Source of the DNA: Cryobacterium gelidum
GTDB lineage: Bacteria > Actinomycetota > Actinomycetes > Actinomycetales > Microbacteriaceae
Assembly: GCF_004403985.1 (NCBI RefSeq)
Contig: NZ_SOHL01000006.1
Location: 1-64,000, forward strand
Direction: 5' to 3'
DNA length: 64,000 nt
Below are positions 280-24,228 of this stretch, piece after piece. The stretch's first letter is position 1. Every line of letters begins with the position of its first letter. The notes under the pieces were generated by a model. That model saw only the letters and a list, made by a program, of their open reading frames with translations. It did no database searches and was not told where the DNA came from. Both the position numbers and the translations under genes were made by a program.

Positions 280-673
280 CCTCGAAATGCCCGGAAATCC
301 GCCGGACATTCACGCTTCTGTTGCGTCGACCATCAGAATCCGCCCCCCGTCGATCGGGCATTTTCTCGGGCGGGTCTTACGGGAATGAAGCATCCTGCCT
401 TCATAGGGCACCCGCGTATCATGACCACGCCGTGTGTTGTCCCGGTGGAGGTCCGGCTTGCGGGCGATCCACCCGGTGTTTGCGTTCGCGTTGGAGTGAA
501 TGGTTTCGCTTGAGTGGCAGGGCGGTTCCACTGAGTCGCCGCAACAGTTACTTTGATGAGGTTACGAAGGTCGGGTCTGGCGAGCATTGGTTTGCGGTGA
601 CGGAATCGTCTCCGTTGACAGAGAGATGTCAAGTTCCGACACCAAGCAACCTCTCGCAACCGAAAGGTAGATC
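280..673. other. Non-coding stretch with one spacer element
   Basis: I see no convincing gene here. ORFs on both strands lack family resemblance and overlap each other. The only structured item is the spacer element at 441-466. The stretch separates the IS30 fragment from the first small gene of the accessory region. Confidence 0.5.
441..466 (+). repeat. Spacer element copy 1
   Basis: Left arm CCCGGTGGAG, centre GGTCCGG, right arm CTTGCGGGCG. It is a clear member of the dispersed family and the leftmost copy seen. Confidence 0.7.
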
Positions 674-955
674 GTGATGCATGCCGCCCACCGACGAACT
701 ATTCGCATGTTCGCGGACTGCGACGGACCCTTGTGGGAGAACGACCACCCCAACTACGCCATGGAGCCCAGCGACTACGACCTTCCCGAAGGTCTCGCCG
801 AAGAACTGGTGGAATGGAATCGGCAGTTTGGCGTTCTTATGAGTGCCCGGGCAAAGCGGCGGGCCTGGCGAGAATGGCGAAGAGCGGGTCGAGCGCTCGC
901 AGATCGCGTCGCCGAGGTGGTTCGTGACTACGCGGATGTATCGTACGAGCCGTGA
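674..955 (+). CDS. Small hypothetical protein
   Basis: A 93-residue soluble protein that I do not recognise. It starts GTG-ATG, with a GAAAGG ribosome-binding site six bases before the GTG and nine before the ATG, so either could be the start. An acidic, aromatic N-terminal part (DCDGPLWENDHPNYAMEPSDY) is followed by an Arg/Ala-rich helix and a Tyr-containing tail. There is no signal peptide or membrane segment. It stands alone, flanked by spacer elements on both sides, as expected of a single-gene cassette. Confidence 0.6.
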   Translation: MMHAAHRRTIRMFADCDGPLWENDHPNYAMEPSDYDLPEGLAEELVEWNRQFGVLMSARAKRRAWREWRRAGRALADRVAEVVRDYADVSYEP

Positions 956-1175
956 AATAGTCGGGTTAGCCTGACCGTGGGCGGCGAATCGTGCGAAGAG
1001 CGGACTGCTCCCGAATGGCCTCCGAAGCCGACTCTGGTGAAGGTATGGGTGAGGTACGGACCGGTGCCGCTCTAGGTGGAGCGGAACGCGGTCGTGGATG
1101 AAGAAGGCTGTTGCTGTTCCCCTCTGACACGAGAGCACCAGCCCACGCGACCGCGTTAGCCGGCCCCCGATCTGG

Positions 1176-1201
1176 CCCGGTGACGGTCCGCCTCACGGAT
1201 G
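1176..1201 (+). repeat. Spacer element copy 2
   Basis: Left arm CCCGGTGACG, centre GTCCG, right arm CCTCACGGATG. It lies 32 bp beyond the stop of the minus-strand gene that ends at 1234. Confidence 0.6.
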
Positions 1202-1233
1202 CCTTCAATCGGCAGGGCTCACGTAGGAATTAG

Positions 1234-1674
1234 CTAGTCGAAGATATTGCCGTTCCAGCCCTCAGGGCCGGCGGCAGCTTTGAGGCGAAGGTGATCGTGT
1301 TCGTCGCTCCTTCGCCATCCATAGGGTTCGACAGACACGTAGCTGACACCGTCGGAGGCCGTGCGGGAGCGGCTCGCGCCGAGACCAAGTGTGAACACTT
1401 CTTCGTCTATCCAGATCAGGAGCTGGTTCACCCAATCTTCCGCATTTGCGGGCGGAGCGTATAACCAGTACTGGGGGGAATCCGAGGACACCAAGGAGAC
1501 AACTAGCCTGGCGGTCAGGCCATCCCGTTGCTGCAGTTCGATGTCAGCGAAGCCTTCGCCTGCGACAACGTCGGTGATGCGGTAGTCGTAGGGTTCTTCT
1601 CGTTTTCGCCCATTGGCACACCACCAGCTATCGAGGCTCTGGAGTATCCGAATAATGTCCTTATCCGCAATCAT
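1234..1674 (-). CDS. Hypothetical protein, 146 aa
   Basis: An acidic soluble protein that I do not recognise. The open frame extends upstream to 1872, but that extension is low-complexity and overlaps the next gene, so I place the start at the ATG at 1674 (MIADKDIIRIL). The protein has an alpha/beta-like pattern with several Trp residues (WW near residue 16, WLYAPP, WVNQLLIWIDEE) and ends GWNGNIFD. It follows the acetyltransferase at 1809-2414 on the same strand, but spacer copy 3 lies between them, so co-transcription is doubtful. Confidence 0.6.
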   Translation of the reverse strand: MIADKDIIRILQSLDSWWCANGRKREEPYDYRITDVVAGEGFADIELQQRDGLTARLVVSLVSSDSPQYWLYAPPANAEDWVNQLLIWIDEEVFTLGLGASRSRTASDGVSYVSVEPYGWRRSDEHDHLRLKAAAGPEGWNGNIFD

Positions 1675-1737
1675 GCTGCCAGTATGGGGCGCGAGCTGCG
1701 ACTTACCAGCGGGCGGAGCGGTCACGATCGAATAGCG

Positions 1738-1763
1738 CCCTGTGAGGGTTCGCCTTACGGAGT
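1738..1763 (+). repeat. Spacer element copy 3
   Basis: Left part CCCTGTGAGG, centre GTTCG, right part CCTTACGGAG. It lies between two minus-strand genes but reads in the plus direction like the other copies. Confidence 0.7.
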
Positions 1764-1808
1764 GAGGCCGTTGTGAAATCAGGCGGCCCAGCCGACGATG
1801 CGACGCAA

Positions 1809-2414
1809 TTATTGGAGGGAGAATTCCCTCGTGGTCAAGGAATGCCGAAGGCCCAGGCGCACGGCTGGCCATTCACTTGCAGTGATGGAAAATATGACGG
1901 TGTCGCGGAGAGCGCCGTCCGGTCCAACTGAGTGGCTGCGCAGCACTCCATCTTCCTTTGCGCCCAAAGCAGCTATTGCCTTTCGTGATTGGCGGTTGTG
2001 CCAGTGAGTACGAAACTCGACGGCAATGCAGTCCAAAACGTCGAAGGCGTACGTCAGCTGGAGGAGCTTGGCCTCTCGGTTCACGCCCGTACCTTGAGCG
2101 CTTCTCGCCAGCCAAGTGGAGCCGATTTCTAATCGCTGCGCATCGGCGCTCGGGTTCATAAAGGTCGTCATGCCGACGATCCGCCCCGTTGACGATTGCC
2201 GAGTGGCCCATGGCAGCATTTTTCCCTGCTCGTGGAGGCTGAGTCGGCGTTCAACCTCCGTGGTCATCGCCTCGGGGTGCGGTATTGATGTGTACCAAGC
2301 ACGCCAGAGTTCTGCTTCGTTCGCAGCTTCACGGAGCTCGGCTACGTGATCGAATGACAGGGGCTCAAGGGTTACGAGCGATCCTGCGAGCGTGGGCGAT
2401 TCTGTGAGCTGCAT
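1809..2414 (-). CDS. GNAT N-acetyltransferase, RimJ/RimL type
   Basis: A 201-residue acetyl-CoA-dependent N-acyltransferase of the ribosomal-protein type. It has the expected layout: an N-terminal strand (GSLVTLEPLSFDHVAEL), a substrate region, the strand IVGMTTFMNPSADAQRLEIGSTWL, a pyrophosphate-binding stretch around SAQGTGVNREAKLLQL, and the late NRQSRKAIAALGAKEDGVLR motif typical of RimL-like proteins. The substrate cannot be read from sequence; relatives modify protein N-termini, amino acids or antibiotics. It is divergent from the GNAT at 2573. Confidence 0.85.
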   Translation of the reverse strand: MQLTESPTLAGSLVTLEPLSFDHVAELREAANEAELWRAWYTSIPHPEAMTTEVERRLSLHEQGKMLPWATRQSSTGRIVGMTTFMNPSADAQRLEIGSTWLARSAQGTGVNREAKLLQLTYAFDVLDCIAVEFRTHWHNRQSRKAIAALGAKEDGVLRSHSVGPDGALRDTVIFSITASEWPAVRLGLRHSLTTREFSLQ

Positions 2415-2572
2415 GCTCCGACACTATGGCACCCGGAAACCTCGTGCGCTTCGGGCGGTATGCGCCGCACCAGGGACTGAACCCGGAGGAGGTTCCCTCC
2501 TAAGTCTCGATCATCCGTGGAGCGACGGTCACTCGGCTTGCGTCCCGTCTACAGTTCCGATTCAGTGGAGTC

Positions 2573-3007
2573 ATGACGAATGCTTCTTACCGGTTCTCTG
2601 CACGTGCCGGCGATATGGACCGCGAGCAGATCCACGCGTGGTTGAGCCGCGAGGCATACTGGGCGACGGGGCGACCCCGTGCCCTTCAGGATGCCGCAAT
2701 CGACGCATCCACCAATTTCGGCATGTTCGACTCAGCCAGCGGACGGCAGGTAGCTTATGCCCGAGTCGTGACCGACTCGGTAACATTCGCGTGGCTCTGC
2801 GACGTCTTCGTGGACCCAAAGGTCCGCGGACACGGCGTGGGGGTCGCACTCATGGAGAACGTCTGCGCGCTACTCGACGATCTGCATCTGAAGCGTGTCG
2901 TACTTTCCACCGGGGACGCCCACGGTCTCTACGAGAAATTCGGTTTCGAGCCCCTCGCTCAGCCTGAAAAATGGATGGCAAGGACTGCAGCGACACCAGA
3001 AACCTGA
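2573..3007 (+). CDS. GNAT N-acetyltransferase, small
   Basis: A 144-residue single-domain GNAT. The acetyl-CoA loop is VDPKVRGHGVGVALME (residues about 82-97) and the C-terminal strand is LYEKFGFEPL, both diagnostic. GTGGAG lies just before the ATG as a weak ribosome-binding site. Substrate unknown. It is divergent from the RimL-type gene across about 160 bp and is followed 12 bp after its stop by spacer copy 4. Confidence 0.88.
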   Translation: MTNASYRFSARAGDMDREQIHAWLSREAYWATGRPRALQDAAIDASTNFGMFDSASGRQVAYARVVTDSVTFAWLCDVFVDPKVRGHGVGVALMENVCALLDDLHLKRVVLSTGDAHGLYEKFGFEPLAQPEKWMARTAATPET

Positions 3008-3019
3008 GCCGAGAGCAAT

Positions 3020-3045
3020 CCCGCTGAGGGTTCGTCATACGGGCG
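3020..3045 (+). repeat. Spacer element copy 4
   Basis: Left arm CCCGCTGAGG, centre GTTCG, right arm TCATACGGGCG. This is one of the best-preserved copies and lies just downstream of a stop codon. Confidence 0.75.
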
Positions 3046-3201
3046 ATGACAGGCTGTGATGATGATCATGACTCTGCACTTCACCGTTCCCACCTGGCTC
3101 CGAGCCTGAGCCATTCGAGCGGCGACACCAGATGTTCACCAACACTCGCTAGTGTCGCCACAGAACTAATTTGGTACAACCGGGCCTGATTTGGGGGAAA
3201 A

Positions 3202-3873
3202 ATGCTCGCCATTATTAAGTCGCGTAAATCATGGGCGGCGCTGTTTGTACTGACGTCGTCCGCCCTCGTTTTCCTCTCGGGTTGTGCGAACGCCACCCCT
3301 GGCCCAGCGGCCTCAAGCTCGACAGCCCCAGCGAGCTCGCTCGCGCTCACCCTCGACGTCGCGGGTCAAGAACAACTCGACTGGGAATGGGAGCGAGTGT
3401 TACGCGAATCGCCCGATGCGGTGCGACCGATGATCGACATCGTTCGCTTCGTTGACAACGATGACTGGGGAACGGCAAGGGAAAGCTGCATGCACGATTT
3501 GGGCTGGCCCGACGTGCGCGCCACAGCGGATGGCGGGCTGGAGTCCGGCATGATTCAAAACTCCCAGCTCGGAGCGCATGCTCTGGCCATGTATACGTGT
3601 AACGCGAAGTACCCGATGGATCCGAAGTACAACGTGCCGCTTACCGACGAGGGTCTCGGGGAGTTGTTTGACTATTTCACCGATGAGCTCCAGCCCTGCT
3701 TAGCGGCCGAAGGGTACGACACCCCGGAGGCTCCGAGCCGGGAAACGTTCATCGATACCTACGCCGAGACGGGTGGTTGGAACCTCTACGAGGGCGTAGC
3801 CGGAGGCGGACAGTCCGAATGGAATGAGATCAACAAGAAGTGTCCGCAGCTTCCTGCCGACGTCGATGAGTGA
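3202..3873 (+). CDS. Secreted lipoprotein, function unknown
   Basis: A 223-residue lipoprotein. The N-terminus is a basic segment plus a hydrophobic helix ending in the lipobox LSGC, so the mature protein is lipid-anchored outside the membrane. A Ser/Ala/Pro linker follows, then an acidic domain with paired cysteines. The start has a GGGGG ribosome-binding site. Its stop lies inside the first codons of the next gene (8-bp overlap), which makes it the first gene of an operon with an adaptor protein, an ABC ATPase and a permease. A partner or substrate-sensing role for that transporter is an inference. Confidence 0.8.
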   Translation: MLAIIKSRKSWAALFVLTSSALVFLSGCANATPGPAASSSTAPASSLALTLDVAGQEQLDWEWERVLRESPDAVRPMIDIVRFVDNDDWGTARESCMHDLGWPDVRATADGGLESGMIQNSQLGAHALAMYTCNAKYPMDPKYNVPLTDEGLGELFDYFTDELQPCLAAEGYDTPEAPSRETFIDTYAETGGWNLYEGVAGGGQSEWNEINKKCPQLPADVDE

Positions 3874-4945
3874 CGCAGCAGCAGTGCGCTCACCGCGCTG
3901 GGCGCGCTGGGTGACCGGTCTGCTGGTAGCAGTCGGGGCTGGCGCCGGTGTGGGGTGGGCGGCGACGACCGCGCTCACACCCCCGACAGATGTTGTGGCC
4001 ACAACCGCGTTCACCCTCGTCGAGGTTGTGCCCGGCGAGGTGGGGTCGAGCATCAACCTGAACACGGTGGCGCAGTGGACTCCGGTGCCCGCCGGATCAA
4101 ACCAGGCAGTCGGCACCGTCACCTCCGTGAATGTCACCGCGGGCCAAAGCGTCGCGGTCGGGGCGACGCTCTACACCGTGAACCTGCGACCGGTCGTGAT
4201 CGCCCAGGGCCAGGTGCCGGCGTTCCGTGCGCTGGCGCAGGACGCTGAAGGAGCGGATGTCACGCAGCTGCAGCAGGCACTCACCGACCTGGCGCTCTAC
4301 ACTGATGCGGTCGATGGACAGTTCGGCCCCCGCACCACCACGGCGGTCAAGACGTGGCAGAAGTCTCTGGGCGTTCCCGCCGACGGCGTCGTGCAGCCGG
4401 GCGACATCATCTTTGTCCCGACGCTGCCGACCCAGGTAGCTCTCGATACCGAGATCGTCACGCGTGGGGCGCTCCTCACCGGCGGAGAAAACGTCGTGCG
4501 GGCGTTACCGGCCGCGCCCATCTTCACCGTACCGGTCAGCGAATCCCAGGCCGCGTTGATGCCCACGGGTACCCGGGTAGAAATCACCAGCATCGACGGC
4601 GGCATTTGGGAAGGGTTCGTGGCCGACCAGGCCGCTGATGAGACCGGACTGATTGTCATCACCCTCGTGGGCAAAGACGGCGCGGTCATCTGCGCCGATG
4701 CCTGCGCGAGCATCCCCGTCACGGAGCAGTCGCTGCTGTCATCACGGATCGTCACGGTGGAATCGATCGCCGGACTGATGGTCCCGAGTGCCGCGCTGCT
4801 CAGCGCGGCCGACGGCACCGCATCCGTCATCGACAACGCCGGCACGAGTCATCCCGTGACGGTGGTCACCAGCGCCCGCGGAATGTCGATCATTGACGGC
4901 GTCGCCGACGGCACCTCGGTGCGCATCCCGGCGACGGCCGACTAG
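3866..4945 (+). CDS. Efflux adaptor with peptidoglycan-binding domain
   Basis: A 359-residue membrane-anchored adaptor. One N-terminal transmembrane helix (about residues 15-35) is followed by a HlyD/MacA-like beta domain with VTSVNVTAGQSVAVGATLYTV. A PG_binding_1 domain follows at about residues 120-165 (DVTQLQQALTDLALYTDAVDGQFGPRT), then more beta structure. The ATG at 3866 overlaps the previous stop; the frame upstream of it is only a shadow. In actinomycetes such adaptors sit next to MacB-like ABC ATPase/permease pairs, as here, and are thought to link the permease to cell-wall export. Confidence 0.85.
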   Translation: MSDAAAVRSPRWARWVTGLLVAVGAGAGVGWAATTALTPPTDVVATTAFTLVEVVPGEVGSSINLNTVAQWTPVPAGSNQAVGTVTSVNVTAGQSVAVGATLYTVNLRPVVIAQGQVPAFRALAQDAEGADVTQLQQALTDLALYTDAVDGQFGPRTTTAVKTWQKSLGVPADGVVQPGDIIFVPTLPTQVALDTEIVTRGALLTGGENVVRALPAAPIFTVPVSESQAALMPTGTRVEITSIDGGIWEGFVADQAADETGLIVITLVGKDGAVICADACASIPVTEQSLLSSRIVTVESIAGLMVPSAALLSAADGTASVIDNAGTSHPVTVVTSARGMSIIDGVADGTSVRIPATAD

Positions 4946-4947
4946 CC

Positions 4948-5595
4948 ATGGTCGATACCATCCGGATGGCCGCCCGCGACATCACCTTCGGCTACGTTCC
5001 GACCGCACCGATCCTGGCGGACTGGAGCGCGGACTTCCACGCCGGAGAGGTGGTCGCCATCCTCGGCCCGTCCGGGCGCGGCAAGTCCACCCTGCTCTAC
5101 GTGCTCGGCCTCATGCTCAAACCCACCGCCGGACAGGTGCAGATCGACGGGACGGATGCTGCGCACCGGCGCGACGCAGACCGCGCCGGTTTACGGGCGC
5201 ATCAGTATGGCTTCGTCTTTCAAGACGCTGCCCTCGATGCCACCCGAACGGTGCTGGACAACATCATCGAGACCACCCTCTACCGCGGAACCCCCAGGAA
5301 GCCGACCATTCGTCGCGCGCACGAGCTGATGGACCAGTTCGGCGTCGCGCTGCGAGCGGGGGCGAAACCGGGTCAGGTGTCGGGCGGTCAGGCGCAACGC
5401 ATCGCGCTCTGCCGTGCCCTACTCAACGACCCGCAGATTCTGCTCGCGGACGAGCCCACCGGCAACCTCGATCCGGCCTCATCCGACCTCGTCGTCGATG
5501 CCCTGCACGCTCAGGCCCACCGCGGCGCGGCCGTCATCGTCGTCACCCACGACCCGGCACTGGTCGCCCGCTGCGACCGCCGACTCGAACTATGA
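4948..5595 (+). CDS. ABC transporter ATP-binding protein, MacB/LolD type
   Basis: A 215-residue ATPase of the family that pairs with FtsX-like permeases. Walker A is GPSGRGKST (about residues 40-48), the Q-loop is FVFQDAAL, the signature is VSGGQAQR, Walker B is ILLADEPTGNLD and the H-loop is VVTHDP. It starts two bases after the previous stop and ends in an ATGA overlap with the permease, so the three are translationally coupled. It is a complete, normal-looking subunit. Confidence 0.95.
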   Translation: MVDTIRMAARDITFGYVPTAPILADWSADFHAGEVVAILGPSGRGKSTLLYVLGLMLKPTAGQVQIDGTDAAHRRDADRAGLRAHQYGFVFQDAALDATRTVLDNIIETTLYRGTPRKPTIRRAHELMDQFGVALRAGAKPGQVSGGQAQRIALCRALLNDPQILLADEPTGNLDPASSDLVVDALHAQAHRGAAVIVVTHDPALVARCDRRLEL

Positions 5596-6698
5596 GCGCG
5601 CTGCGCCGGTGGGCTGCCGTGGTGCGGGAAGCGTTGGCGACGGCGTGGGCGCAACCCGTCGCATCCGTTGTCACCATCGTCATGGTCGCCGGTATGTGTG
5701 CCACGGTACTGCTGACGACTGGACGCACGGTCGGGGCGGAGCAGGCCGTGCTCGGCTCAATCGACTCGGAGGGGACGCGTTCCATCATCATTCGTGCCGA
5801 CACCGACGCCGGGCTCGACGCCACAGTGCTGGACCGGCTGGCACACATCGACGGCATCCAATGGGCTGGAGCGTTCGGTATCGCCCAGGACGTCACCAAC
5901 CTCCAATTTGCCGGCGCGACCAAGGTCCCCATGCGCTTGGCCTGGAGCAGCCAACTCAACCACCTCGGGATCACCACGCTGCCGCCAGTGAGCAACGCCT
6001 CGATCTGGGCATCACCGACTGCGCTGGCGGGCCTGGGAATGCCGGACGCCGTCGGGGCTGTCGTGGACGACTCCGGCGTCGACTTCGCCGTCACCGGGAG
6101 CCTGACCGTTCCGGACTTTCTCGCCTTCCTTGAACCCCTCGTCATCGCCCCGCAGACCGAAAACACCCCGGGAACGGTCGCCGTGCTCATTGTCATCGCC
6201 GACCGCCCCGACCTGGTCGCTCCCGTCTCCGACGCGGTGCGATCCATCCTGGCGGTCACCGATCCCGCCAAAGTGACCCTGACCACGAGTGAAAACCTCG
6301 CCGCACTCCGTGGCCTGGTTGAAGGACAGCTGGATTCGTTCGGCCGCAGCCTCGTCGTCGTCGTTTTCGCACTGACCGCGGTGCTGGTGGCAGCGATTCT
6401 TTACGGCCTGGTGATGCTGCGTCGCAAGGACTTCGGGCGCCGCCGCGCCTTGGGCGCCTCCCAAGCCCTGATCATCTCGCTGCTCCTCACGCAAACCGGT
6501 GCCCTCGCCCTGGTCGGTGCCACGATCGGCAGCATTGCAGCGTCGATCGGGCTGACCGCCTCCGGAGATCCACTCCCGGGCTGGGACTTCGTCGGCGCCG
6601 TCGCACTCCTGTCGACCACCATCGGCGTGATCGCGGCCCTGGTACCCGCGCTGGCGGCCGCCCGCCGCGATCCGCTCAAAGAACTCCGCGTGCCGTAA
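5592..6698 (+). CDS. FtsX-like ABC transporter permease
   Basis: A 368-residue permease with MacB/FtsX topology. One N-terminal helix (about residues 18-40) is followed by a large external domain of about 200 residues and three C-terminal helices ending in the family motif RRDPLKELRVP. It starts inside the ATGA overlap with the ATPase gene; a longer open frame upstream is antiparallel noise over the ATPase. With the adaptor and lipoprotein it forms a mechanotransmission-type exporter, substrate unknown. Spacer copy 5 follows about 90 bp downstream. Confidence 0.93.
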   Translation: MSALRRWAAVVREALATAWAQPVASVVTIVMVAGMCATVLLTTGRTVGAEQAVLGSIDSEGTRSIIIRADTDAGLDATVLDRLAHIDGIQWAGAFGIAQDVTNLQFAGATKVPMRLAWSSQLNHLGITTLPPVSNASIWASPTALAGLGMPDAVGAVVDDSGVDFAVTGSLTVPDFLAFLEPLVIAPQTENTPGTVAVLIVIADRPDLVAPVSDAVRSILAVTDPAKVTLTTSENLAALRGLVEGQLDSFGRSLVVVVFALTAVLVAAILYGLVMLRRKDFGRRRALGASQALIISLLLTQTGALALVGATIGSIAASIGLTASGDPLPGWDFVGAVALLSTTIGVIAALVPALAAARRDPLKELRVP

Positions 6699-6790
6699 CC
6701 AACGGCGCACCGACCAATGTCAGGAAACGAACAGGGCGACATAGCTGATCCAGGATTAATCGCCAAGAGCAGACAGCTCGGCCAAATTGT

Positions 6791-6813
6791 CCCGTAGGGG
6801 GTTGGCGAAACGG
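6791..6813 (+). repeat. Spacer element copy 5 (degenerate)
   Basis: Left arm CCCGTAGGGG, centre GTTGG, then CGAAACGG. The right arm is weak. It separates the efflux operon from the gene at 6948. Confidence 0.4.
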
Positions 6814-6947
6814 ACAGTTTCGGCGCCAGTGCACCCGTCCACGACGATGGGGGCCAGCGGCATCGACACATCCTCTCGCGGCGGTCTAAACATCCGGCTG
6901 GGCCACCCGATATCGTGGATCTGTCGATGGAATGAGACGGAGCGACA

Positions 6948-7550
6948 GTGACGAGTCTGTTTGAGCGCTGGAAGAAAACCGATCCGCGAGCGTGGACAAC
7001 GGAGGCCGTTGAAGGTTGGCTGGAAAAGGAATTTCTGGCCTATGAGATCCCGTTGGCAGCGATTTCCAGTGCGGACTACCGCAATGATGAAGAGGTCCGT
7101 GAAGACCTGATCTACAAGCTGTACACAATCACTCACCCTGATGTACTTCAACGCCTGTACAGCGCAGAAGAGAAAGCGATGAAAGACTGCGGCCCTGAGG
7201 CCTACGAGGACTATTGGAGGAGCCTGTTCCTGAGGCAGAATCATCGCCCGGGAGCCGAAACGTCGCATACGGCATTGACGGATGCGACGTGGCTGGCCTA
7301 CAACTTGCTGACGATTCAGCACGCGCTGGGGCAGCGCACATCGATTGTTCTTGAACGCGAAGGTGGTCAGGTAACCGGGGCCAAAGTATATGGAATGTCC
7401 GATTACCTCAGCACATTCTTGGTCGCGGTGACGGGTTACCGGGAAGCCGGAACCAACGAGCGTAACTACTATTCCATGGTCACTGGCGACGTGAATGATG
7501 TCGGCTTCGATTGGTACCTCGACTGCTTGGCGCGCCACGGAATGATCTAA
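6948..7550 (+). CDS. Hypothetical protein, 200 aa
   Basis: A soluble acidic protein that I do not recognise. It uses a GTG start with GGAG six bases upstream. The sequence looks like a real globular protein with regular helices and balanced composition (LFERWKKTDPRAWTTEAVEGWLEKEF near the N-terminus, YNLLTIQHALGQ in the middle). There is no membrane segment or known catalytic motif. It is monocistronic between spacer copy 5 and the IS30-interrupted copy 6, again one gene per interval. Confidence 0.7.
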   Translation: MTSLFERWKKTDPRAWTTEAVEGWLEKEFLAYEIPLAAISSADYRNDEEVREDLIYKLYTITHPDVLQRLYSAEEKAMKDCGPEAYEDYWRSLFLRQNHRPGAETSHTALTDATWLAYNLLTIQHALGQRTSIVLEREGGQVTGAKVYGMSDYLSTFLVAVTGYREAGTNERNYYSMVTGDVNDVGFDWYLDCLARHGMI

Positions 7551-7607
7551 CAGCGCCGGCGGCTGCTCAGTAAGTCCTACCCGCAACGGACCCGAAAAAC
7601 CCCCCGT

Positions 7608-7626
7608 CCCGCTCAGGGTTTGGCGC
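7608..7626 (+). repeat. Spacer element copy 6, left half, cut by IS30
   Basis: Left arm CCCGCTCAGG and centre GTTTGG are followed at once by the left end of the IS30 element. The matching right half lies on the other side of the element at 8872-8887. Confidence 0.55.
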
Positions 7627-8867
7627 ATTCAACCGGTCGTCGCAACACTCCATTTTTGAGAGGTGTTGCCGATGTGGTCGAAGTTTGAGTTGGTGGAGAT
7701 GCAGGCTCGGTTTTGGGTGTTGATGTCTAAAGGGTCGACGCTGACGGCGGCGTGTGATGCTGTGGGAGTGAATCGACGAACTGGACGGCGTTGGCGTCAA
7801 GCAACGGGAGGGCGGATCCCTGTTCCGGAGGCCGTGAGGTCCGGGCGGTATTTGTGCTTGGAAGAACGGCTACGAATCGCGGACTTGCATGTGACCGGTG
7901 CCGGCGTGCGTGCGATCGCTGCCGAGGTGGGCCGGTCTCCTGCGACGATCAGTCGGGAGTTAGCTCGCGGTGGGTCCAAGGCTGGCCCACGAGCGCGAAC
8001 AAGGTATGCCCCTTATGCGGCGCAGAAGCAGGCTGAGCTTCGCGGGCGCCGTCCCAAGGCCAGCAAATTCGATCACCTGGAACTAGCATCCTTGGTGCAG
8101 ACGAAGCTGTGCGTGAAATGGAGTCCGGAACAAATCAGTGACCACTTGGCGACAGTGTTTTCGGACCGGCAGGAGATGCGGGTGAGCCCCGAAGCGATTT
8201 ACCAAGCACTCTATGCGCAGGGCCGCGGTCATTTGCGTGCTGATCTGCATCAACACTTGCGCACCGGCCGTGCCATCCGGCGTCCGAGACGGCCTGCCGC
8301 GAAGAACTCGGGCAAGATCCCCGACATGATCATGATCAGCGAGCGACCTGCAGAAGTTTCTGACCGTGCCGTACCTGGCCATTGGGAAGGCGATCTGATC
8401 TTGGGGTCACACTGCCGATCGGCCATCGCCACTCTGGTGGAGCGTCAGACCCGCTTCACGATGCTGGTCCACCTTCCCGGCGATCACAGTGCCATCACCG
8501 TTCGCGATGGCCTGTTAGCCACCATCAAAACTCTGCCCGAGCGCTTGGCTAAAACCTTGACCTGGGATCAGGGAACCGAGCTGGCCCAACACCGGCAGAT
8601 AACAATGGCCACCAAGATGTCCATCTACTTCTGTGATCCACACTCGCCGTGGCAACGCGGCTCCAACGAAAACACCAACGGGCTGCTGCGCCAGTATTTC
8701 CCCAAGGGCACCGACCTCTCCGTCCATTCACCCGAGCGGCTCCTGGAAGTGGCCACCGAACTCAACAATCGACCCCGCAAAACACTCGGCGGCATCACAC
8801 CCGCCCAAGCCATGCAACGACTACTCTCAGACCCAGAAAAACCAATCGTTGCGACGACCGGTTGAAT
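7627..8867 (+). mobile_element. IS30-family insertion sequence, complete
   Basis: The element is about 1241 bp, within the usual IS30 size. Its ends are perfect 20-bp inverted repeats, ATTCAACCGGTCGTCGCAAC at 7627-7646 and its complement at 8848-8867; the match extends with one mismatch to 25 bp. The transposase stop lies within the right repeat. I could not identify a clear target-site duplication. The insertion splits a spacer element into halves at 7608-7626 and 8872-8887. Confidence 0.93.
7672..8865 (+). CDS. IS30-family transposase
   Basis: A 397-residue DDE transposase. It has an N-terminal helix-turn-helix (TLTAACDAVGVNRRTGRRW), a second one (GVRAIAAEVGRSPATISREL) and an RNase H-fold core with Asp in GHWEGDLILG, Asp in TWDQGTEL and Glu in GSNENTNGLLRQYFPKG. 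I prefer the ATG at 7672, eight bases after GAGAGG, over the GTG at 7663. The frame is uninterrupted and all three catalytic residues are present, so the enzyme is probably functional. Confidence 0.95.
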   Translation: MWSKFELVEMQARFWVLMSKGSTLTAACDAVGVNRRTGRRWRQATGGRIPVPEAVRSGRYLCLEERLRIADLHVTGAGVRAIAAEVGRSPATISRELARGGSKAGPRARTRYAPYAAQKQAELRGRRPKASKFDHLELASLVQTKLCVKWSPEQISDHLATVFSDRQEMRVSPEAIYQALYAQGRGHLRADLHQHLRTGRAIRRPRRPAAKNSGKIPDMIMISERPAEVSDRAVPGHWEGDLILGSHCRSAIATLVERQTRFTMLVHLPGDHSAITVRDGLLATIKTLPERLAKTLTWDQGTELAQHRQITMATKMSIYFCDPHSPWQRGSNENTNGLLRQYFPKGTDLSVHSPERLLEVATELNNRPRKTLGGITPAQAMQRLLSDPEKPIVATTG

Positions 8868-8871
8868 CCGC

Positions 8872-8887
8872 CTTCGGCTTGTGGGCA
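8872..8887 (+). repeat. Spacer element copy 6, right half
   Basis: CTTCGGCTTGTGGGCA directly follows the right end of the IS30 element. Joined to the left half at 7608-7626 it restores a normal spacer element. Confidence 0.55.
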
Positions 8888-9014
8888 CATGCAAGGACCG
8901 CCGACGTTAAGCGCTTGCACTCGCGGCCTGCGGTTTTGCCCGCGTTTGGGCATCGTCTCATCGAAGTGGTCGGGACTCGTGGGTGTGGCCTTGACCCCGG
9001 AGAGTGGACACGGG

Positions 9015-10307: not shown

Positions 10308-10310
10308 GTG

Positions 10311-10865: not shown

Positions 10866-10869
10866 GCAC

Positions 10870-10895
10870 CCCGTAAGACGTTCGGCTTACGGGCG
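10870..10895 (+). repeat. Spacer element copy 8 (best palindrome)
   Basis: Left arm CCCGTAAG, centre ACGTTCGG, right arm CTTACGGG followed by CG. The eight-base arms are perfectly complementary, and two more pairs form inside. It begins four bases after the NodA-like stop. Confidence 0.8.
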
Positions 10896-11950: not shown

Positions 11951-14263
11951 ATGGGCACTGACGACCAGACCAACACATGCAGTTTCCACATGAGCGGTGC
12001 GCTGCCAGCAGGTGGCGACCACCTCGGTGGCACCTTCGGTCAGTCGCCGACTCTGGACAGTTGGTACCCGCAGCGTCTCCGGGTTGAGCTTCTCCACCGG
12101 AACGGCGTAGACGCCGACCCGCTCGGCGCGGACTTCGACTACGCGGCGGCTTTCGCCACGATCGACCTCACGACGCTCAAGTCGGACATCAAGCGACTGC
12201 TCACCACATCGGTCGACTGGTGGCCGGCGGACTACGGCAACTACGGTCCACAGATGATCCGAATGGCGTGGCATGCCGCCGGCACGTACCGCATTGCCGA
12301 CGGCCGTGGCGGAGCGGGCACCGCGATGCAGCGGTTCGCACCAATCGGAAGCTGGTGGGACAACGCCAACACCGACAAATCACGACGACTCCTACAGCCG
12401 ATCAAGCACCAGTACGGCAACGCTCTGTCGTGGGCCGACCTGATGGTCTTGACCGGCAACTGCTCCCTCGAGTTGATGGGCCTGCCGACGTACGGCTTCG
12501 GTGGTGGACGACTCGATGCGTGGGAACCGGACGACGGCACCTGGTGGGGCCCGGAGGTCTGGAACCCGCACGCGGTTGCGAGCCCTGACGAGATGGTGAG
12601 CCGCGATGAACGCTGGCATGGTCAGAACGGCGACGCCGGCTACGACTTGCAGAGCCCCCTGGCCGCGTCGCACCAGGCGCTCATCTACGTCAACCCTGAG
12701 GGGCCCTATTCGAACGGCGACCCGCTGGGCTCAGCACGCGACATTCGCATCACGTTCACGCGGATGGCGATGAACGACGAGGAAACGGTGGCATTGATCG
12801 CCGGTGGCCACGCGTTCGGTAAGAGCCACGGCCAGGTACCCGCATCCGACATCGGACCATCACCCGAGAAGGCCCCGATCGAGTCGATGGGGCTCGGTTG
12901 GCACAACCCGGTGGGTACCGGCAGTGCCGAGCACGCTTCGACCAACGGCATCGAGGGCAGCTGGACTCCGAACCCGACACAGTGGGACAACGCCTACCTC
13001 GAGAACCTGTTCGCGTACGACTACGAGCAGACGAAAAGCCCGGCCGGCGCGCTGCAGTGGACACCGACTGACTCGGAGGCGCCGAAGACTCCGGACGCCC
13101 ACGTATCCGGTCAGATGTACCCGCTCATGATGATGACCTCGGACATCGCACTCAAGGTCGACCCGGAGTATCGGGCCATATGCGAGCGTTTCCTGGCCGA
13201 CTTCGATCTGTTCACCCTCGCGTTCTCGAAGGCCTGGTACAAGCTCACGCACCGCGACATGGGGCCGAAGCACCGGTACCTCGGCCCGGAGGTCACCATC
13301 GCCGACGACCTGCTCTGGCAGGACCCGCTTCCGGACGCAGCAGGATCCTCACTCGACGAGGCCGACGTGGCAGCGCTCAAGGACGCCGTCCTCGCGACCG
13401 GGCTGTCCGTGTCCGACCTCGTGTACACGGCGTTCTCCGCCGCCTCGACCTACCGCGACAGCGACAAGCGCGGAGGGGCGAACGGTGCCCGCCTGGCCTT
13501 GTCGCCGCAGAAAGACTGGGCGGTCAACCGACGCACCGTCCCAGTCATCGACGCGCTGCGGAACGTGCAGACGGCTTTCACGGCGACGTCGGGCGGACGG
13601 AAGGTGTCTCTCGCCGACCTCATCGTCCTCGCCGGCAGCGCCGCCGTGGAGCAGGCGGCACGGGCGGCAGGATCTGACGCCAGCGTGCCGTTTACGCCAG
13701 GCCGTGTCGACACGACGCAGGAGTTGACCGACATCGAGATGTTCGAGTGGCTGCGACCCATTGCGGACGGGTTCCGCAACTTCGTGTCCGAGCGCTTCGA
13801 AGAGTTTGCTCCGGGCGTCGCGCCCGAGGCGGCATTCCTCGACAAGGCGAACCTGTTCACTCTCACCGCACCGGAGTGGACCGTCCTGCACGCCGGGCTC
13901 CGCGTGCTCGGCAGCAACTGGGACGGGTCCGACGTGGGTGTGCTCACGGATCACGTCGGAGCCCTGACGACCGACTTCCTCGTGAATCTGACCGACACCG
14001 ACCTCATCTGGACGAAGGACGACGAGACCGCGATGACCTTCACTGGTCGGGTTCAGGCGACCGGCGAGGCTCGCTGGAGGGCCTCCCGGAATGACCTGGT
14101 ATTCGGCTCGAACGCGCAACTGCGGTCGATCGCCGACGCCTACGCGGGCAGCGACGGGCAAGAGCGGTTCGTCCGCGAATTCATCCGCGTCTGGTCGAAG
14201 GTCATGATGCTCGACCGCTACGACGTCAAGGGCCACAAGCGTTACGGGGCGATGGCCGCCTGA
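11951..14263 (+). CDS. katG: Catalase-peroxidase KatG
   Basis: A 770-residue bifunctional haem catalase-peroxidase that removes hydrogen peroxide. Distal residues Arg104, Trp107 and His108 are in [12 protein letters not shown], and the proximal His is in [10 protein letters not shown] (about residue 287). The Tyr of LIYVNPEGP (246) and a Met in [10 protein letters not shown] (272/274) can form the Met-Tyr-Trp adduct needed for catalase activity. The second, haem-free KatG domain is complete. GGGAG precedes the ATG. A TATATT -10-like box sits at 11893-11898 without a well-spaced -35. No furA-like regulator adjoins it. Confidence 0.96.
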
Positions 14264-14329: not shown

Positions 14330-14630
14330 AAGCCGTCGAGGCCTTGACCGAACGACGCTTGAGGCCGCGAGCCGAACGTTGCACGGATTGATCAGGCTGG
14401 GGACGGCCAAGGAACCTCCGCGGGCAGCACGTGGTCGACCACACTCGCACCTCGACGGCCTGCGAGGGTGGACGGGCCGCTATGCCCTGGAAGCCGTTGC
14501 CCCCACTCGTAGAGACGCCGGCCGGATTTGCTTTGGCCTCGGGTCGCGAGAGGGTGCCGCTGATGTTCTCTGTGGCGGCTCGTAAGGCCTGAGCCTTCCG
14601 GGGTCATGTCCCGCTGAGGAATGCGCGTGA

Positions 14631-14655
14631 CCGGTAGAGGTTCGGTTTGCGGGCG
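14631..14655 (+). repeat. Spacer element copy 10
   Basis: CCGGTAGAGG, then TTCGG, then TTTGCGGGCG. An extra left-arm-like sequence CCCGCTGAGG lies just before it at 14610-14619, so the copy may be a partial duplication. Confidence 0.6.
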
Positions 14656-15110: not shown

Positions 15111-15119
15111 CGAGGCCGT

Positions 15120-15144
15120 CCCGCAGGGCGTTCCGCGAGCGGAC
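15120..15144 (+). repeat. Spacer element copy 11
   Basis: CCCGCAGGGC, then GTTCCGC, then GAGCGGAC. It lies nine bases after the RidA stop, between convergent genes. Confidence 0.5.
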
Positions 15145-15147
15145 ACT

Positions 15148-15696
15148 TTATGCGTGCTCCTGGACGTCGACGAGCCAGCCCTCCAGTGAGCGTCGGCGTT
15201 GCTCGGGCGGTGGAACAGCGAACTCTCCGATGGAAGAGAGTTCGGCTTCTTCGTCGATGCGCAGCCGAACTCCCTGAACCGAGGTCAACATCGCCGTATT
15301 CGCAACTGGCTCAATCTCGATCATGTATCGAGAGGGCGTAGCTCCGAGGAACGCACCACTGCCGAAATCGCGGCCGACCATCGGCCACTCGTCGCCGTCC
15401 GCCGTCGTGATCGATTCGGTCGGCGCGCCGTGCCCGGGCCGACGTAGCGACCGACGCTCGATGACGTCCCGCGTGACCGCGTGCACCGCGACGGCCCTGC
15501 CGCGCACACGATCGGTGCATTCTTCCTCATGGTGCGACTCCATTGTGTCTACCGTGGCGATGAGTTCCGGTTCGAGCATGTCAGCGAGAGCAGAATGCGG
15601 CGTTCGCGTCTCGATACCGAAGTCGACCTCATCGCCGATGGCAAAAGCATCGCCGCAGCACGCCCATTCCCATTTCGTCAGCCAGACGCGCGTCAT
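15148..15696 (-). CDS. Hypothetical protein, DUF6578-like
   Basis: A 182-residue soluble protein. The N-terminal block MTRVWLTKWEWACCGDAFAIGDEVDF, with a Cys-Cys pair and an OB-like strand order, recalls the DUF6578 proteins of actinomycetes; this assignment is from memory and tentative. The rest is acidic with no catalytic motif. I place the start at ATG 15696; a GTG at 15705 is an alternative. It is convergent with the RidA gene and divergent from the kinase-like gene. Confidence 0.65.
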   Translation of the reverse strand: MTRVWLTKWEWACCGDAFAIGDEVDFGIETRTPHSALADMLEPELIATVDTMESHHEEECTDRVRGRAVAVHAVTRDVIERRSLRRPGHGAPTESITTADGDEWPMVGRDFGSGAFLGATPSRYMIEIEPVANTAMLTSVQGVRLRIDEEAELSSIGEFAVPPPEQRRRSLEGWLVDVQEHA

Positions 15697-15775
15697 AATG
15701 CCCACGCTAGCTCAACTCACACGCTGCGACTCGGCCGATGTATTAGGGGATCCGCTACCGGAACGTTGTAGCTTT

Positions 15776-15800
15776 CCCACTCAAGGTTCCGCTTACAGCC
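15776..15800 (+). repeat. Spacer element copy 12
   Basis: CCCACTCAAG, then GTTCC, then GCTTACAGCC. It lies just upstream of the gene at 15815. Confidence 0.6.
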
Positions 15801-15814
15801 TTTAGGTTGGAAGG

Positions 15815-19303: not shown

Positions 19304-19374
19304 TCTGACCGCGGGCGGCCAAACTGACCGCCCGCGATGGCCACCAACTGCTCGTTCATTTTCGACAGCAGCGT

Positions 19375-19399
19375 CCCTTTGAGGGTTCCCCTGTGGAAC
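19375..19399 (+). repeat. Spacer element copy 13
   Basis: CCCTTTGAGG, then GTTCC, then CCTGTGGAAC. A degenerate right arm. It lies between the divergent GNAT remnant and the lipoprotein gene. Confidence 0.45.
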
Positions 19400-19472
19400 T
19401 GGATCAAGGCCGGTCTTGGACTACGCACGGAGCGGATGTGCCTACAACCGAGCGGTGTGGGACCATGCAGTC

Positions 19473-19871: not shown

Positions 19872-19908
19872 CGACAACCAGCGAGTCAATCACCGGGACG
19901 TAGCAGGT

Positions 19909-19935
19909 CCCGTAGAAGGTTCCTCATCGCGGGCG
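19909..19935 (+). repeat. Spacer element copy 14
   Basis: CCCGTAGAAG, then GTTCC, then TCATCGCGGGCG. Good arms. It lies after the lipoprotein stop and before the convergent gene that ends at 20063. Confidence 0.6.
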
Positions 19936-20615: not shown

Positions 20616-20643
20616 GTCCTGTACAGGGTTCGTCATAAGGGAC
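20616..20643 (+). repeat. Spacer element copy 15
   Basis: GTCCTGTACAGG, then GTTCG, then TCATAAGGGAC. The outer arms GTCC and GGAC pair. It lies downstream of the LysM lipoprotein stop on the other strand. Confidence 0.65.
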
Positions 20644-20671
20644 GACCGCGGTGTATGCCTTGGATCGGCGT

Positions 20672-21475: not shown

Positions 21476-21578
21476 CACGTCCCCTCCCCACCGAACCCAG
21501 TATGGCAGTCGGCCCCATCGCCGGTCCAACCGCGGCCTCGACCAACGAAGTAGCTCGACGCACCGATCGCTATGAACC

Positions 21579-21603
21579 GTCCCGTAAGCGGTTCCCGTAG
21601 GAC
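21579..21603 (+). repeat. Spacer element copy 16
   Basis: GTCCCGTAAGC, then GGTTCC, then CGTAGGAC. Outer arms GTCC and GGAC pair. It lies between two minus-strand genes and reads in the plus direction. Confidence 0.65.
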
Positions 21604-21650
21604 ACAGCGCTAGGCAGCCTTACCCACCGTTGGACGTCGTCGGTGCTCGA

Positions 21651-22088: not shown

Positions 22089-22185
22089 GATTCAACCCTA
22101 CGTTCGGGAGCCAAACCGGGCAATCATCTGAGGTGTCCGGTTACGGATCGCCCGACCGGATATCGGCGGTTCAGGCGTCAGCGTA

Positions 22186-22210
22186 CCCATTAAGCGTTCG
22201 GCATACGGCC
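22186..22210 (+). repeat. Spacer element copy 17
   Basis: CCCATTAAGC, then GTTCG, then GCATACGGCC. It lies between the DUF1579 gene and the DUF3052 gene, both on the minus strand. Confidence 0.65.
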
Positions 22211-22319
22211 ATTGCATTCGAACCGCTTTACAGGTGTCGCGCGGCGCAATCATGAAGTTATGACGCGCACGGGCGCCGAGTCAATCATGGCCACCCGAGG
22301 GCAGAACAGCGTACCCGGC

Positions 22320-22754
22320 TCAGAGATCGGGCAGGGATCCGTAGCTGTTGTTGTAGATCTTGCCGTTCTTCGGGTGCGTGAACTTCAGCCCTGCCCACGT
22401 GTCGTCAATGCGCAGGCATGTGCTCTCGACGAGGCTGTGACTGTATCCGATCTCGATGACCTTCGGCAGACTGAGACCTGAGCCCAGCTTCCGCGCCTTC
22501 GGCCAGGAGAGCCACAACATGCCCGACGGCTTCAGATGGAGCTTGAGTCGTGGAAAGATGTCGTGCATCTCGGATTGAGTCACGCTGAAGAAATGGATGT
22601 AGTCGAAGTCTCCCTCGAGATCCTCACTGACCTCCAACTCCGGAAGTCCGATGGCCTTGAGGGTCGACCCAGGGGCGTTCACGAAGTGGGCCAGCGCGCC
22701 CTCTTTGATTCCCATCTTCTGAGCGACAGACCGAGACATGACAGCTTCGCTCAT
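22320..22754 (-). CDS. DUF3052-like protein
   Basis: A 144-residue protein of the DUF3052 type. It carries KMGIKEGALAHFVNAPG at the N-terminus, DFDYIHFFSVTQSEM in the middle and PSGMLWLSWPKARKLGSGL, then DDTWAGLKFTHPKN. The fold is expected to be Rossmann-like, function unknown. Its ATG lies in an ATGA overlap with the stop of the VOC gene, so the two are translated as a pair. Both read away from the WYL regulator. Confidence 0.85.
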   Translation of the reverse strand: MSEAVMSRSVAQKMGIKEGALAHFVNAPGSTLKAIGLPELEVSEDLEGDFDYIHFFSVTQSEMHDIFPRLKLHLKPSGMLWLSWPKARKLGSGLSLPKVIEIGYSHSLVESTCLRIDDTWAGLKFTHPKNGKIYNNSYGSLPDL

Positions 22755-23149
22755 TTCCCGGAAACCTTCTTGAGCACCTCGAGATAGTGCGGGTTATACA
22801 TAATCCCCAGGATATTGCCGAAGGGATCGACGACGGATGCCGTCACAAATCCTTCACTGCGGTCAGTCGGCGGCTGGTATTCGGTCGCCCCCATCGACAG
22901 TAGCTTCTCGAATGACCCCGGCAGGTCGTCCACGTGCCATTGGATGATCTCCCCGGCCGGCCCGTCTGGCACTGGTGGCGCGTACGACGCGTCAATGATT
23001 CCAAGCTCGTTCTGATAGTCGCCAACCCTGAACTCCACATAGCCGGGCATCTGAAAGTACGCGCCGATACCCAGCAGCTCGCTGTACCACTTGCGTGCCG
23101 CCTCCAGATCGGCGGCGAAATAGCTGACTGTAGCGAAGCCTCGCAACAT
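22751..23149 (-). CDS. VOC-family (glyoxalase-like) protein
   Basis: A 132-residue single-domain VOC protein. It has the strand pattern GFATVSYFAADLEAARKWYSELLG, then EFRVGDYQNELGIID, WHVDDLPGSFEKLL and VVDPFGNILGIMYNPHY, including a Glu/His set that could bind metal. Such proteins act as dioxygenases, isomerases or antibiotic-binding proteins; the ligand cannot be told. Start at ATG 23149 behind GGAAGGA. It is the first gene of a pair with DUF3052 and is divergent from the WYL regulator. Confidence 0.85.
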   Translation of the reverse strand: MLRGFATVSYFAADLEAARKWYSELLGIGAYFQMPGYVEFRVGDYQNELGIIDASYAPPVPDGPAGEIIQWHVDDLPGSFEKLLSMGATEYQPPTDRSEGFVTASVVDPFGNILGIMYNPHYLEVLKKVSGK

Positions 23150-23234
23150 GTGATTTTCCTTCCGATTCACGTGATGTCAGTCTCCACCAGTAAAGTGCTC
23201 ACCTTCTGACTACTTTGTTTGCGACAATTGATTC

Positions 23235-24179
23235 ATGCGCGCAGATCGCCTCGTCGCCACACTCCTGCTGATGCAGGCGCGGGGACGCGTGACAGCGAAG
23301 GAAGTAGCTGCTGAGTTTGAGACATCCGTCGCTACGGCGAGGCGTGATCTCGAAGCGCTGTCAGCTGCGGGAATTCCCGTGTACCCACAGGTCGGCCGCG
23401 GCGGTGGGTGGCAACTACTCGGCGGTGCTCGCACCGACCTGAGCGGGCTCACATCGGCTGAGGCGCGTGCGCTTTTCCTCCTGGTCGGGCCAGCCGCGTC
23501 CGTAGTCCCAGAGGCCAAGTCGGCGCTCCGCAAGCTTGTGCACGCCCTTCCCGACAGCTTTAGAACGGATGCCGAAGCGGCGGCAGAGGCCGTCGTGCTT
23601 GACCCCGCGCGGTGGGACCGGCCCCACCGCGCACAGCCACCACTTGTGACCGAACTCCAGGCCGCTGTCATACAGCGCCGGAAGGTGCGCCTGAGCTACC
23701 GGGGTTGGGACCGCGACCCGGTCGAAAGACTCTGCGACCCGTGGGGCCTGGTCGAGAAGAACGAGGTGTGGTACCTACTCGGCGGCGTGGATGGCGCCCA
23801 GCGAACATTTCGCATCGAGCGGATCATCTGGGCAGTTGTCACAGAAGATCCCGCCGACCGCCCGGACGACTTCGACCTCGCAGAGGCATGGAATACCGTC
23901 GTACGCGACGTGAACCAGCAGCGCGAGAGCGCATCCACGATCGTGGTCACAAATACCGCGATATTGCCCTTCCTGCGTGAACAGTTCGGCGAGCTGGCAG
24001 TGGAGGACACCGCGATCGACGACCATCGATCCAGGGTCCGAATCAGTGCGCCGGCCGAAATCATGCTCGCACGTGGCCTCGCTGGATGGGGTGAATACAT
24101 TGACGTTCTCGAGCCGGCATCCGTGCGCTCGGAACTCATGCGCCTCGGCGCCGCGCTCTTGGAGCGCAATGGGCCGTAG
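23235..24179 (+). CDS. HTH-WYL transcriptional regulator
   Basis: A 314-residue regulator. An N-terminal winged helix (RLVATLLLMQARGRVTAKEVAAEFETSVATARRDLEAL) is followed by a WYL sensor domain (about residues 140-230, with LSYRG and WYLLGG, then TFRIERI) and a C-terminal WCX-like extension. This is the DeoR-like architecture of actinomycetes. It is divergent from the VOC/DUF3052 pair across 85 bp and probably controls them and itself, which is an inference from layout. Confidence 0.92.
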   Translation: MRADRLVATLLLMQARGRVTAKEVAAEFETSVATARRDLEALSAAGIPVYPQVGRGGGWQLLGGARTDLSGLTSAEARALFLLVGPAASVVPEAKSALRKLVHALPDSFRTDAEAAAEAVVLDPARWDRPHRAQPPLVTELQAAVIQRRKVRLSYRGWDRDPVERLCDPWGLVEKNEVWYLLGGVDGAQRTFRIERIIWAVVTEDPADRPDDFDLAEAWNTVVRDVNQQRESASTIVVTNTAILPFLREQFGELAVEDTAIDDHRSRVRISAPAEIMLARGLAGWGEYIDVLEPASVRSELMRLGAALLERNGP

Positions 24180-24202
24180 GCCCGGGACCCGCACTCACAA
24201 TG

Positions 24203-24228
24203 CCCGTTGAGCGTCCGTCTTGCGGGCA
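24203..24228 (+). repeat. Spacer element copy 18 (rightmost)
   Basis: CCCGTTGAGC, then GTCCG, then TCTTGCGGGCA. Good arms. It is 24 bp after the WYL stop. I see no convincing copy to the right of this point. Confidence 0.7.

Follow-up and report, generated by a model that had tools for sequence, protein, structure and literature searches.

The repeated element and its array

The window considered here is a stretch of 64,000 nucleotides of Cryobacterium gelidum (NZ_SOHL01000006.1, positions 1 to 64,000), where contig C25 of a 3.47-Mb Cryobacterium (Microbacteriaceae) genome begins. Its first 24 kb carry an array of genes separated by copies of a short element, a 27-bp imperfect palindrome of the form GTCCCGYWNRGSG-TY-CSNCTTRCGGGC, which lies in a single orientation. 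The information content spans positions -13 to +13 of the core (GTCCCGYWNRGSG, T[T/C], CSNCTTRCGGG(C/A)) and the flanks are close to background. According to Pfam, the cargo of the array includes a NodA-like acyltransferase (PF02474, 10221..10865), a peroxidase (PF00141 in two stretches, 11951..14263), a RidA-type protein (PF01042, 14679..15110) and a subtilase (PF00082, 17384..18841), all on the plus strand, and, within 22751..24179, a glyoxalase/VOC protein on the minus strand (PF00903) and a WYL regulator on the plus strand (PF13280). Nothing was found in the window with Rfam or by tRNA scanning.

A first matrix of 23 bp gives, in a Markov control, 0.1 matches above a score of 13 per 64 kb per strand, and 2.2 above a score of 8. 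Its iteration at a low threshold drifted into background, so that later matrices were trained on arrays only, with strict thresholds. The second matrix, trained on the arrays of six genomes, finds 422 copies above its threshold of 13 bits in 1.12 Mb, and 3 false matches in 1 Mb of Markov sequence on one strand. An earlier inspection of this DNA by letters alone (the sequence-only reading) had listed at least 17 copies at 18 places, all on the plus strand. The first matrix recovers 15 of the 18 places on that strand, with scores of 10.3–30.9, and 14 window sites exceed the threshold of the second matrix; all 14 are on the plus strand, as had been claimed.

Sites 1 (439..466, core TC at 452), 2 (1174..1201, TC at 1187), 7 (10868..10895, TT at 10881), 11 (19373..19400, TT at 19386) and 12 (19907..19934, TT at 19920) are defined by matrix scans. 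Homology to other loci adds to the matrix for sites 3 (1736..1763, TT at 1749, an edge of the cassette 1749-3031), 4 (3018..3045, TT at 3031), 5 (6789..6816, TT at 6802, an edge of the cassette 3031-6802), 9 (15118..15145, TT at 15131), 10 (15774..15801, TT at 15787), 13 (20616..20643, TT at 20629) and 16 (24201..24228, TC at 24214), which is the last of the array. Sites 8 (14628..14655, TT at 14641) and 15 (22184..22211, TT at 22197) have counterparts in a hybrid site described below.

Two other sites are damaged. The place listed as 7608/8872 is a single site (site 6), divided at its core by an IS30-type insertion (7622..8872), which is recognized from its inverted ends (7622-7657 and 8837-8872), from its transposase open reading frame (7663-8865, with HTH_38 and rve domains) and from the flanks; the left half lies at 7608..7621 and is also matched in locus L099, and the right half at 8873..8888. 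The insertion occupies a TT core, which indicates that the palindromic site is an insertion target too. Site 14 (21578..21605, core near 21591), listed at 21579, falls under the threshold of the second matrix and its right half is degenerate; it is a genuine cassette edge, from which homology to L080 extends (from 21590). The repeat is confirmed as real, with 16 of the 18 listed places supported; the second matrix gave no confirmation for the places 10281 and 11221.

The first matrix also has two matches above 13 on the minus strand within the array. The match at 10871 is the palindrome of the plus-strand site at 10870; the one at 14365 is a lone match (15.6), which is gone with the second matrix. 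From 24.3 to 64 kb there are three first-matrix matches above 8 (at 51625, 54196 and 61664, the best at 9.7), about the chance rate, in agreement with the earlier statement that no copy was seen there. Elsewhere in this genome, a second array lies on contig C24 (90.2-104.6 kb, locus L010), and contig C18 has isolated copies.

Across the arrays of six genomes, neighbouring sites point the same way in 336 of 347 cases, and their median spacing is 999 bp. The cassette genes themselves lie about equally in the two directions (198 versus 177), according to rough gene calls by a codon model which left 104 of 353 cassettes without any gene. Among 360 unique TT sites, the mutual information of the 13 mirrored position pairs of the two arms is that of shuffled sequences; one pair of the 13 reaches p 0.027, without excess of pairing. 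This lack of covariation suggests that the site acts as two protein-bound half-sites and not as a folded hairpin.

The element was surveyed with a 23-mer pattern allowing 2 mismatches on both strands, which misses many true sites and gives 0–3 control matches per genome and strand. The counts range from 0 to 31 across 57 Cryobacterium genomes and from 0 to 5 in 92 further genomes sampled from the family and order. One match in the latter set, in genome G102, belongs to a true locus with recombinase and site (L031).

Breakpoints within the site and exchange of cassettes

The comparison of sites from Cryobacterium and its relatives shows that the same cassette recurs beside different neighbours. 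All pairs among 688 non-redundant sites were compared (an earlier run used 418); the 688 remain from 822 after collapsing identical contexts of 160 bases and removing sites less than 80 bp from a locus end, and the cut-offs for flank homology are 0.8 and 0.45. When only the right flank is homologous (204 pairs, 74 families), the bases are common from position 0 rightwards; when only the left flank is homologous (245 pairs, 69 families), they are common up to +1. Position +1 matches in 0.91 of right-sharing cases (confidence interval 0.85-0.96, 74 families) and in 0.95 of left-sharing cases (0.90-0.99, 69 families), compared to 0.62 for unrelated pairs. Position -2 in right-sharing pairs (0.58 vs 0.53 in unrelated pairs) and position +3 in left-sharing pairs (0.59 vs 0.49) are near the baseline. 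The fitted boundary is 0, tied with -1, for right-sharing pairs (499 of 500 bootstraps) and +1/+2, tied, for left-sharing pairs (463 of 500). The central dinucleotide (0, +1) alone is common to both kinds of pairs, and the overlap is 2 bp, or at most 4 since G(-1) and C(+2) are nearly invariant.

Such breakpoints at the site centre argue against attC sites, which would break at one edge, and against a tyrosine recombinase, for which 6-8 bp would be shared. A 2-bp central overlap is that of a serine recombinase, as judged from breakpoints and not from cleavage. The core type, TT or TC, is kept in nearly all swap families: the 74 right-sharing families comprise 62 TT, 4 TC, 6 mixed TT/TC and 2 others, and the 69 left-sharing families 45 TT, 16 TC, 2 AC, 5 mixed TT/TC and 1 other. 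The gain and loss of cassettes takes place at the element, with homology breaking at the site centre; the sequence-only reading had proposed strain alignments to look for breaks there.

The clearest junction is a hybrid site of C. flavum (L072:9600), made of the left half of the window site at 14641 and the right half of the window site at 22197. Its homology with the window extends over 2.96 kb on one flank (98.7%) and over 2.03 kb on the opposite flank (94.2%), and the 7.6-kb window block between these two sites is missing from the junction. Eight three-way matches are listed, four rows of which are one repeated junction, and two of the eight, with negative insert lengths, are something other than simple indels.

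Window cassettes are found in other species with 94-98% nucleotide identity and with ends at the cores. Segments of this kind are 1748-3033, 3031-6802, 6792-7620, 21.59-22.2 kb, 22196-24228 and 11.6-14.64 kb; the right end of the last is at, or at most 12 bp from, core 14641 in three of four loci. The cassette 1749-3031 is 98.4% identical in C. flavum (L070), and the cassette 3031-6802 is 98.4% identical in the adjoining loci L063/L062 of genome G045. L099 holds the same cassette as the window together with the left half of window site 6, and the site is uninterrupted there. A relative of the cassette 15131-15787, at 85%, is enclosed by two L010 sites, in the second array of the same genome. 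Outside the array, a segment at about 26.4-27.3 kb is only 83% identical in C. flavum (G018) and C. aureum (G045), which suggests that the cassettes moved recently between species.

A clade of small serine recombinases at related arrays

A PF00239 search of 13 Cryobacterium genomes returns many small serine recombinases. One clade of Tn3-type resolvases of about 194 amino acids is found at arrays of other Cryobacterium, often with the element upstream of the gene start. The members first compared are at least 76% identical to the C. flavum reference, when other serine recombinases reach about 41% at most in that comparison and 50% at most in a genus-wide search. The clade protein matches PF00239 (Resolvase, E 3.3e-40) and HTH_7 (E 7.3e-8); the nearest solved structures are a DNA-invertase (4m6f and 3uj3, best E 2.5e-33), which we take to be Gin, and also the gamma-delta resolvase. 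The enzyme found at the arrays of the relatives is a small serine recombinase of the Tn3-TnpR type, and not the IntI for which the sequence-only reading had proposed a search.

Eighty named loci of the clade (the best of 325, with at least 74% identity) come from Cryobacterium, Arthrobacter, Pseudarthrobacter, Frigoribacterium, Microbacterium, Georgenia and two metagenome-assembled genomes assigned to Solirubrobacter(ales), among others. A home element exceeds the threshold at 13 of the 27 loci from Cryobacterium and at 29 of the 53 from elsewhere. Where found, it lies 122-139 bp upstream of the gene and points away from it; in one subgroup the distance is 55 bp. The aligned loci have further conserved blocks, similar to half-sites, between the home element and the gene, and the 55-bp subgroup is without such a block. 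We read these blocks as candidate res subsites II and III, and the home element as a putative subsite I. A relative on pAG1 (72%) directly precedes a Tn3-family transposase (TnpA); a match to this transposase occurs at 0 of 27 Cryobacterium loci and at 4 of the 80 loci overall. The recombinase gene of the 55-bp subgroup (L072:14634-15337, L068:2846-3549) is itself flanked by a site on either side, and its matches to other loci run from one core to the next, which gives it the appearance of a travelling cassette.

Elements are more numerous where the clade is present: their median is 7 in Cryobacterium genomes that carry a clade member or a fragment of one, compared to 2 in the others (28 vs 29 genomes, p 5e-6; the 28 include a 67% fragment in G025). 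With uninterrupted clade copies only, the medians are 8.5 and 2 (22 vs 35 genomes, p 9e-6). The window genome has no clade match at E≤1e-25, and no intact copy was found there, which bears out the earlier idea of an integrase-less array. Its array would therefore be a relic, or dependent on an enzyme from outside. A stretch of the same genome (L014:2681-2776) has a weak likeness, over 40 amino acids, to the C-terminus of the recombinase, and may be the remnant of a lost gene. A PF00589 search of this genome gives 7 tyrosine-recombinase matches at six places, none of them in its two arrays. Other resolvases lie near the isolated C18 sites; they were set aside, since none of them turns up repeatedly at arrays among the fetched loci.

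The core dinucleotide differs between genera and between kinds of sites. The home core of Cryobacterium is TC in all 13 cases found, and the other sites there are TT (48), TC (13) or other (4). Where the home site is AC, AT predominates among the remaining sites (29 of 41), and at the four loci with a TT home site AT neighbours account for 6 of 12. The first core base mostly agrees between the home site and the array. Within the first site set, close pairs (less than 150 bp apart) are TT followed by TC in 32 of 37 cases and TC followed by TT in 1 of 37. The TC partner is typically 36-83 bp further on, and the spacings cluster at 36-40, 58-60, 68-71 and 82-83 bp (35 of 36 pairs, the remaining one at 128 bp), which are roughly helical steps. 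These gene-less TT-to-TC adapters are found in many contexts, for example L055:12883-12953 and L070:5690-5760. The Antarctic Pseudarthrobacter plasmid L305 (NZ_CP047899.1) has AT and AC sites between mixed genes and an AT-to-AC analogue of the adapters (98 and 124 bp). The mixed genes include VOC and WYL genes, as does the last cassette of the window; the plasmid has no nucleotide match to the window.

An AT core reads alike on both strands, so that an enzyme with a 2-bp overlap should join half-sites either way. Half-sites were assigned with left and right matrices trained on Cryobacterium TT sites, and sites with an unassigned half were excluded, which kept 52 of 86 AT sites and 103 of 171 non-palindromic sites outside Cryobacterium. 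Sites made of two like halves (LL or RR) account for 29 of the 52 AT cores and for 21 of the 103 TT, TC and AC cores outside Cryobacterium (p 2e-5). It thus appears that palindromic AT cores lose their left/right polarity, as a serine recombinase predicts. Since the assignment of halves is noisy and the loci are related, this is support and not proof.

Interpretation, rival explanations and known systems

The arrays very probably represent an integron-like cassette system, in which a small Tn3-family serine recombinase has the element as its crossover site, one comparable to subsite I of a res. Bare 27-bp copies would flank one or a few unrelated genes and build long arrays in Cryobacterium and other Micrococcales. 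The recombinase would occupy both half-sites, of 12-13 bp, of two such sites, and both DNAs would be cut around the central 2 bp, then rotated and religated. A cassette would consist of a right half-site, genes and a left half-site; it could leave the array as a circle that contains a single complete site, or enter a compatible site, hybrid sites arising at each swap. A non-palindromic core (TT, TC) would hold the sites in one direction. From the comparisons we infer that the cassettes are moved by the clade recombinase, that circles are formed and that a bare site is enough. The sequence-only reading, which had proposed an integrase-less array or an undescribed recombination system of actinomycetes, is supported in part: it is right as to the cassette array, to the gains and losses at the element and to the distinction from attC; a working of the attC kind does not agree with sites that lack arm covariation and are split.

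Several observations speak against this interpretation. In Cryobacterium the home sites found are TC and the cassette sites mostly TT, so that free recombination between the two kinds is not expected. No home site was found at 38 of the 80 loci, partly because of contig ends and divergence. Four genomes (the window genome G000, G020, G010 and G013) have 8-12 pattern matches each without a clade member. Well-studied resolvases require accessory sites and favour one molecule, unlike what is seen here, where the cassette sites have no accessory sites. In L010:4156-6320, in the second array of the window genome, the orientation flips once, from plus to minus, and no recombinase match is found there. 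Other homologies of window cassettes are of 67-92%, some of which end away from sites, and families within one genus are only partly independent. As for polarity, the comparison of AT with AC cores within other genera reaches only p 0.045 (same-half sites 24 of 44 vs 7 of 25), and of the 216 TT sites of Cryobacterium with both halves assigned, 55 come out as same-half.

The discrepancy between home and cassette cores also serves the idea that a different serine recombinase, a resolvase or invertase of the cell, acts on the TT sites, the res of the clade merely sharing an ancestral half-site. Moreover, 45 of 57 Cryobacterium genomes have some serine recombinase match (E≤1e-25), and resolvases of other groups lie near the isolated C18 sites of the window genome. 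However, it is this clade which recurs beside arrays across genera in the fetched loci, with the element upstream, its half-sites resemble those of the cassettes and the first core base mostly agrees, which makes a different enzyme unlikely. A tyrosine recombinase of the Xer kind, acting on double-stranded sites with an overlap of 6-8 bp, would account for palindromic arms round a centre; such enzymes are present in the window genome, and the pdif modules are a known precedent (PMC9501444). The zone common to left- and right-sharing pairs is nevertheless 2 bp, at most 4, with -2 and +3 near the baseline, and this reading is very improbable.

An integron relic, in which the elements are attC sites that recombine as folded single strands and whose IntI has diverged or been lost, would explain imperfect palindromes that lie between unrelated small genes in a largely constant orientation, a gene content of the integron type and a window genome without the clade recombinase. 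Against it, the mirrored arms do not covary, the genes run both ways by the rough gene calls, and the site is split mid-way, whereas an attC site stays with its cassette. The core, GTTC, does not fit GTTRRRY, a mismatch which had already been pointed out from the letters, and the arrays of the window genome, the only ones searched for it, hold no tyrosine recombinase. The relic is thus hardly credible. Passive spacers (terminators, repetitive extragenic palindromes or elements of the miniature inverted-repeat transposable kind), with gene turnover by homologous recombination, would agree with intergenic, hairpin-like palindromes near stop codons; central breakpoints, hybrid sites, an orientation independent of the gene strand, the clustering in arrays and the near-control counts in most other sampled genera of the family and order leave this explanation next to no probability. 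The terminator or repeat reading and the attC and Xer readings were all rejected on the grounds of breakpoints, covariation and orientation.

A wider form of the resolvase interpretation is tentative, a little more apt to fail than to hold. It is possible that these actinobacterial arrays are a new gene-exchange platform, operated by a serine resolvase of the Tn3 type that no longer depends on accessory sites, in which the 2-bp core serves as a compatibility code. The first base would mark a dialect, which is T in Cryobacterium and A in the majority of loci from Arthrobacter and Frigoribacterium. The second would separate the home site and the short gene-less adapters (xC) from the cassettes (xT), so that a single enzyme could serve both housekeeping resolution and the exchange of cassettes without mixing them, save for rare T/C crossovers.

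Integrons are the textbook example of a platform for gene capture. An unrelated enzyme with a different chemistry appears to yield an integron-like gene-capture platform in Micrococcales. Such a platform would move enzymes, regulators and transporters between species, as the 94-98% identities with edges at the site core suggest, and would account for accessory-gene turnover in soil and cold-habitat bacteria. It would also offer a ready natural library of minimal, mutually orthogonal sites for serine recombinases, and it raises the question of how a resolvase escapes the topological control that normally limits it. From breakpoints in split sites, the overlap length can be read from genomes alone.

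We rate the system as new and its parts as known, the protein and its res being of the Tn3-resolvase kind. This rating follows from the tests, by which it is neither an integron nor a pdif system, and from the open-access literature, where a search found no serine-recombinase cassette arrays (subscription journals and bioRxiv were outside its scope). As in integrons (IntI, attI, attC), unrelated small genes are arrayed between directly oriented short recombination sites, the recombinase gene adjoins its own primary site and arrays without recombinase exist (cf. CALIN). Unlike in integrons, the recombinase is of the serine and not the tyrosine type, the 27-bp site is split at a 2-bp core, the arms do not covary and the genes lie on both strands. 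Integrons are exceedingly rare among these bacteria. Complete integrons are reported to be lacking in Actinobacteria (PMC9024848).

The resemblance to the TnpR/res system of the Tn3 family lies in the protein (PF00239 with HTH_7) and in an element-like subsite I followed by half-site-like blocks before the gene. The differences are the many bare copies of subsite I which bound cassettes far from the gene, and the proposed role, an exchange between array positions that goes beyond cointegrate resolution; the scarcity of TnpA matches also sets these loci apart from Tn3 transposons. DNA invertases (Gin, Hin) include the closest solved relative of the clade, and their sites have a size and a 2-bp centre like those of the 27-bp element. 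Their single inverted pair of sites contrasts with the direct repeats seen here, up to 16 per 20-kb locus.

The shuffling reportedly described by Kholodii (2001), an exchange of DNA between res sites by resolvases, gives mosaic transposons or plasmids. Here, by contrast, cassette arrays with dozens of bare sites are found. Resolvase-driven exchange at res is also on record in a figure legend of PMC9501444. According to the same article, the pdif modules of Acinetobacter plasmids are similar in that genes between short recombination sites recur in various plasmids; they differ in their XerC/XerD tyrosine recombinases and in dif-like sites inversely oriented at the module ends.

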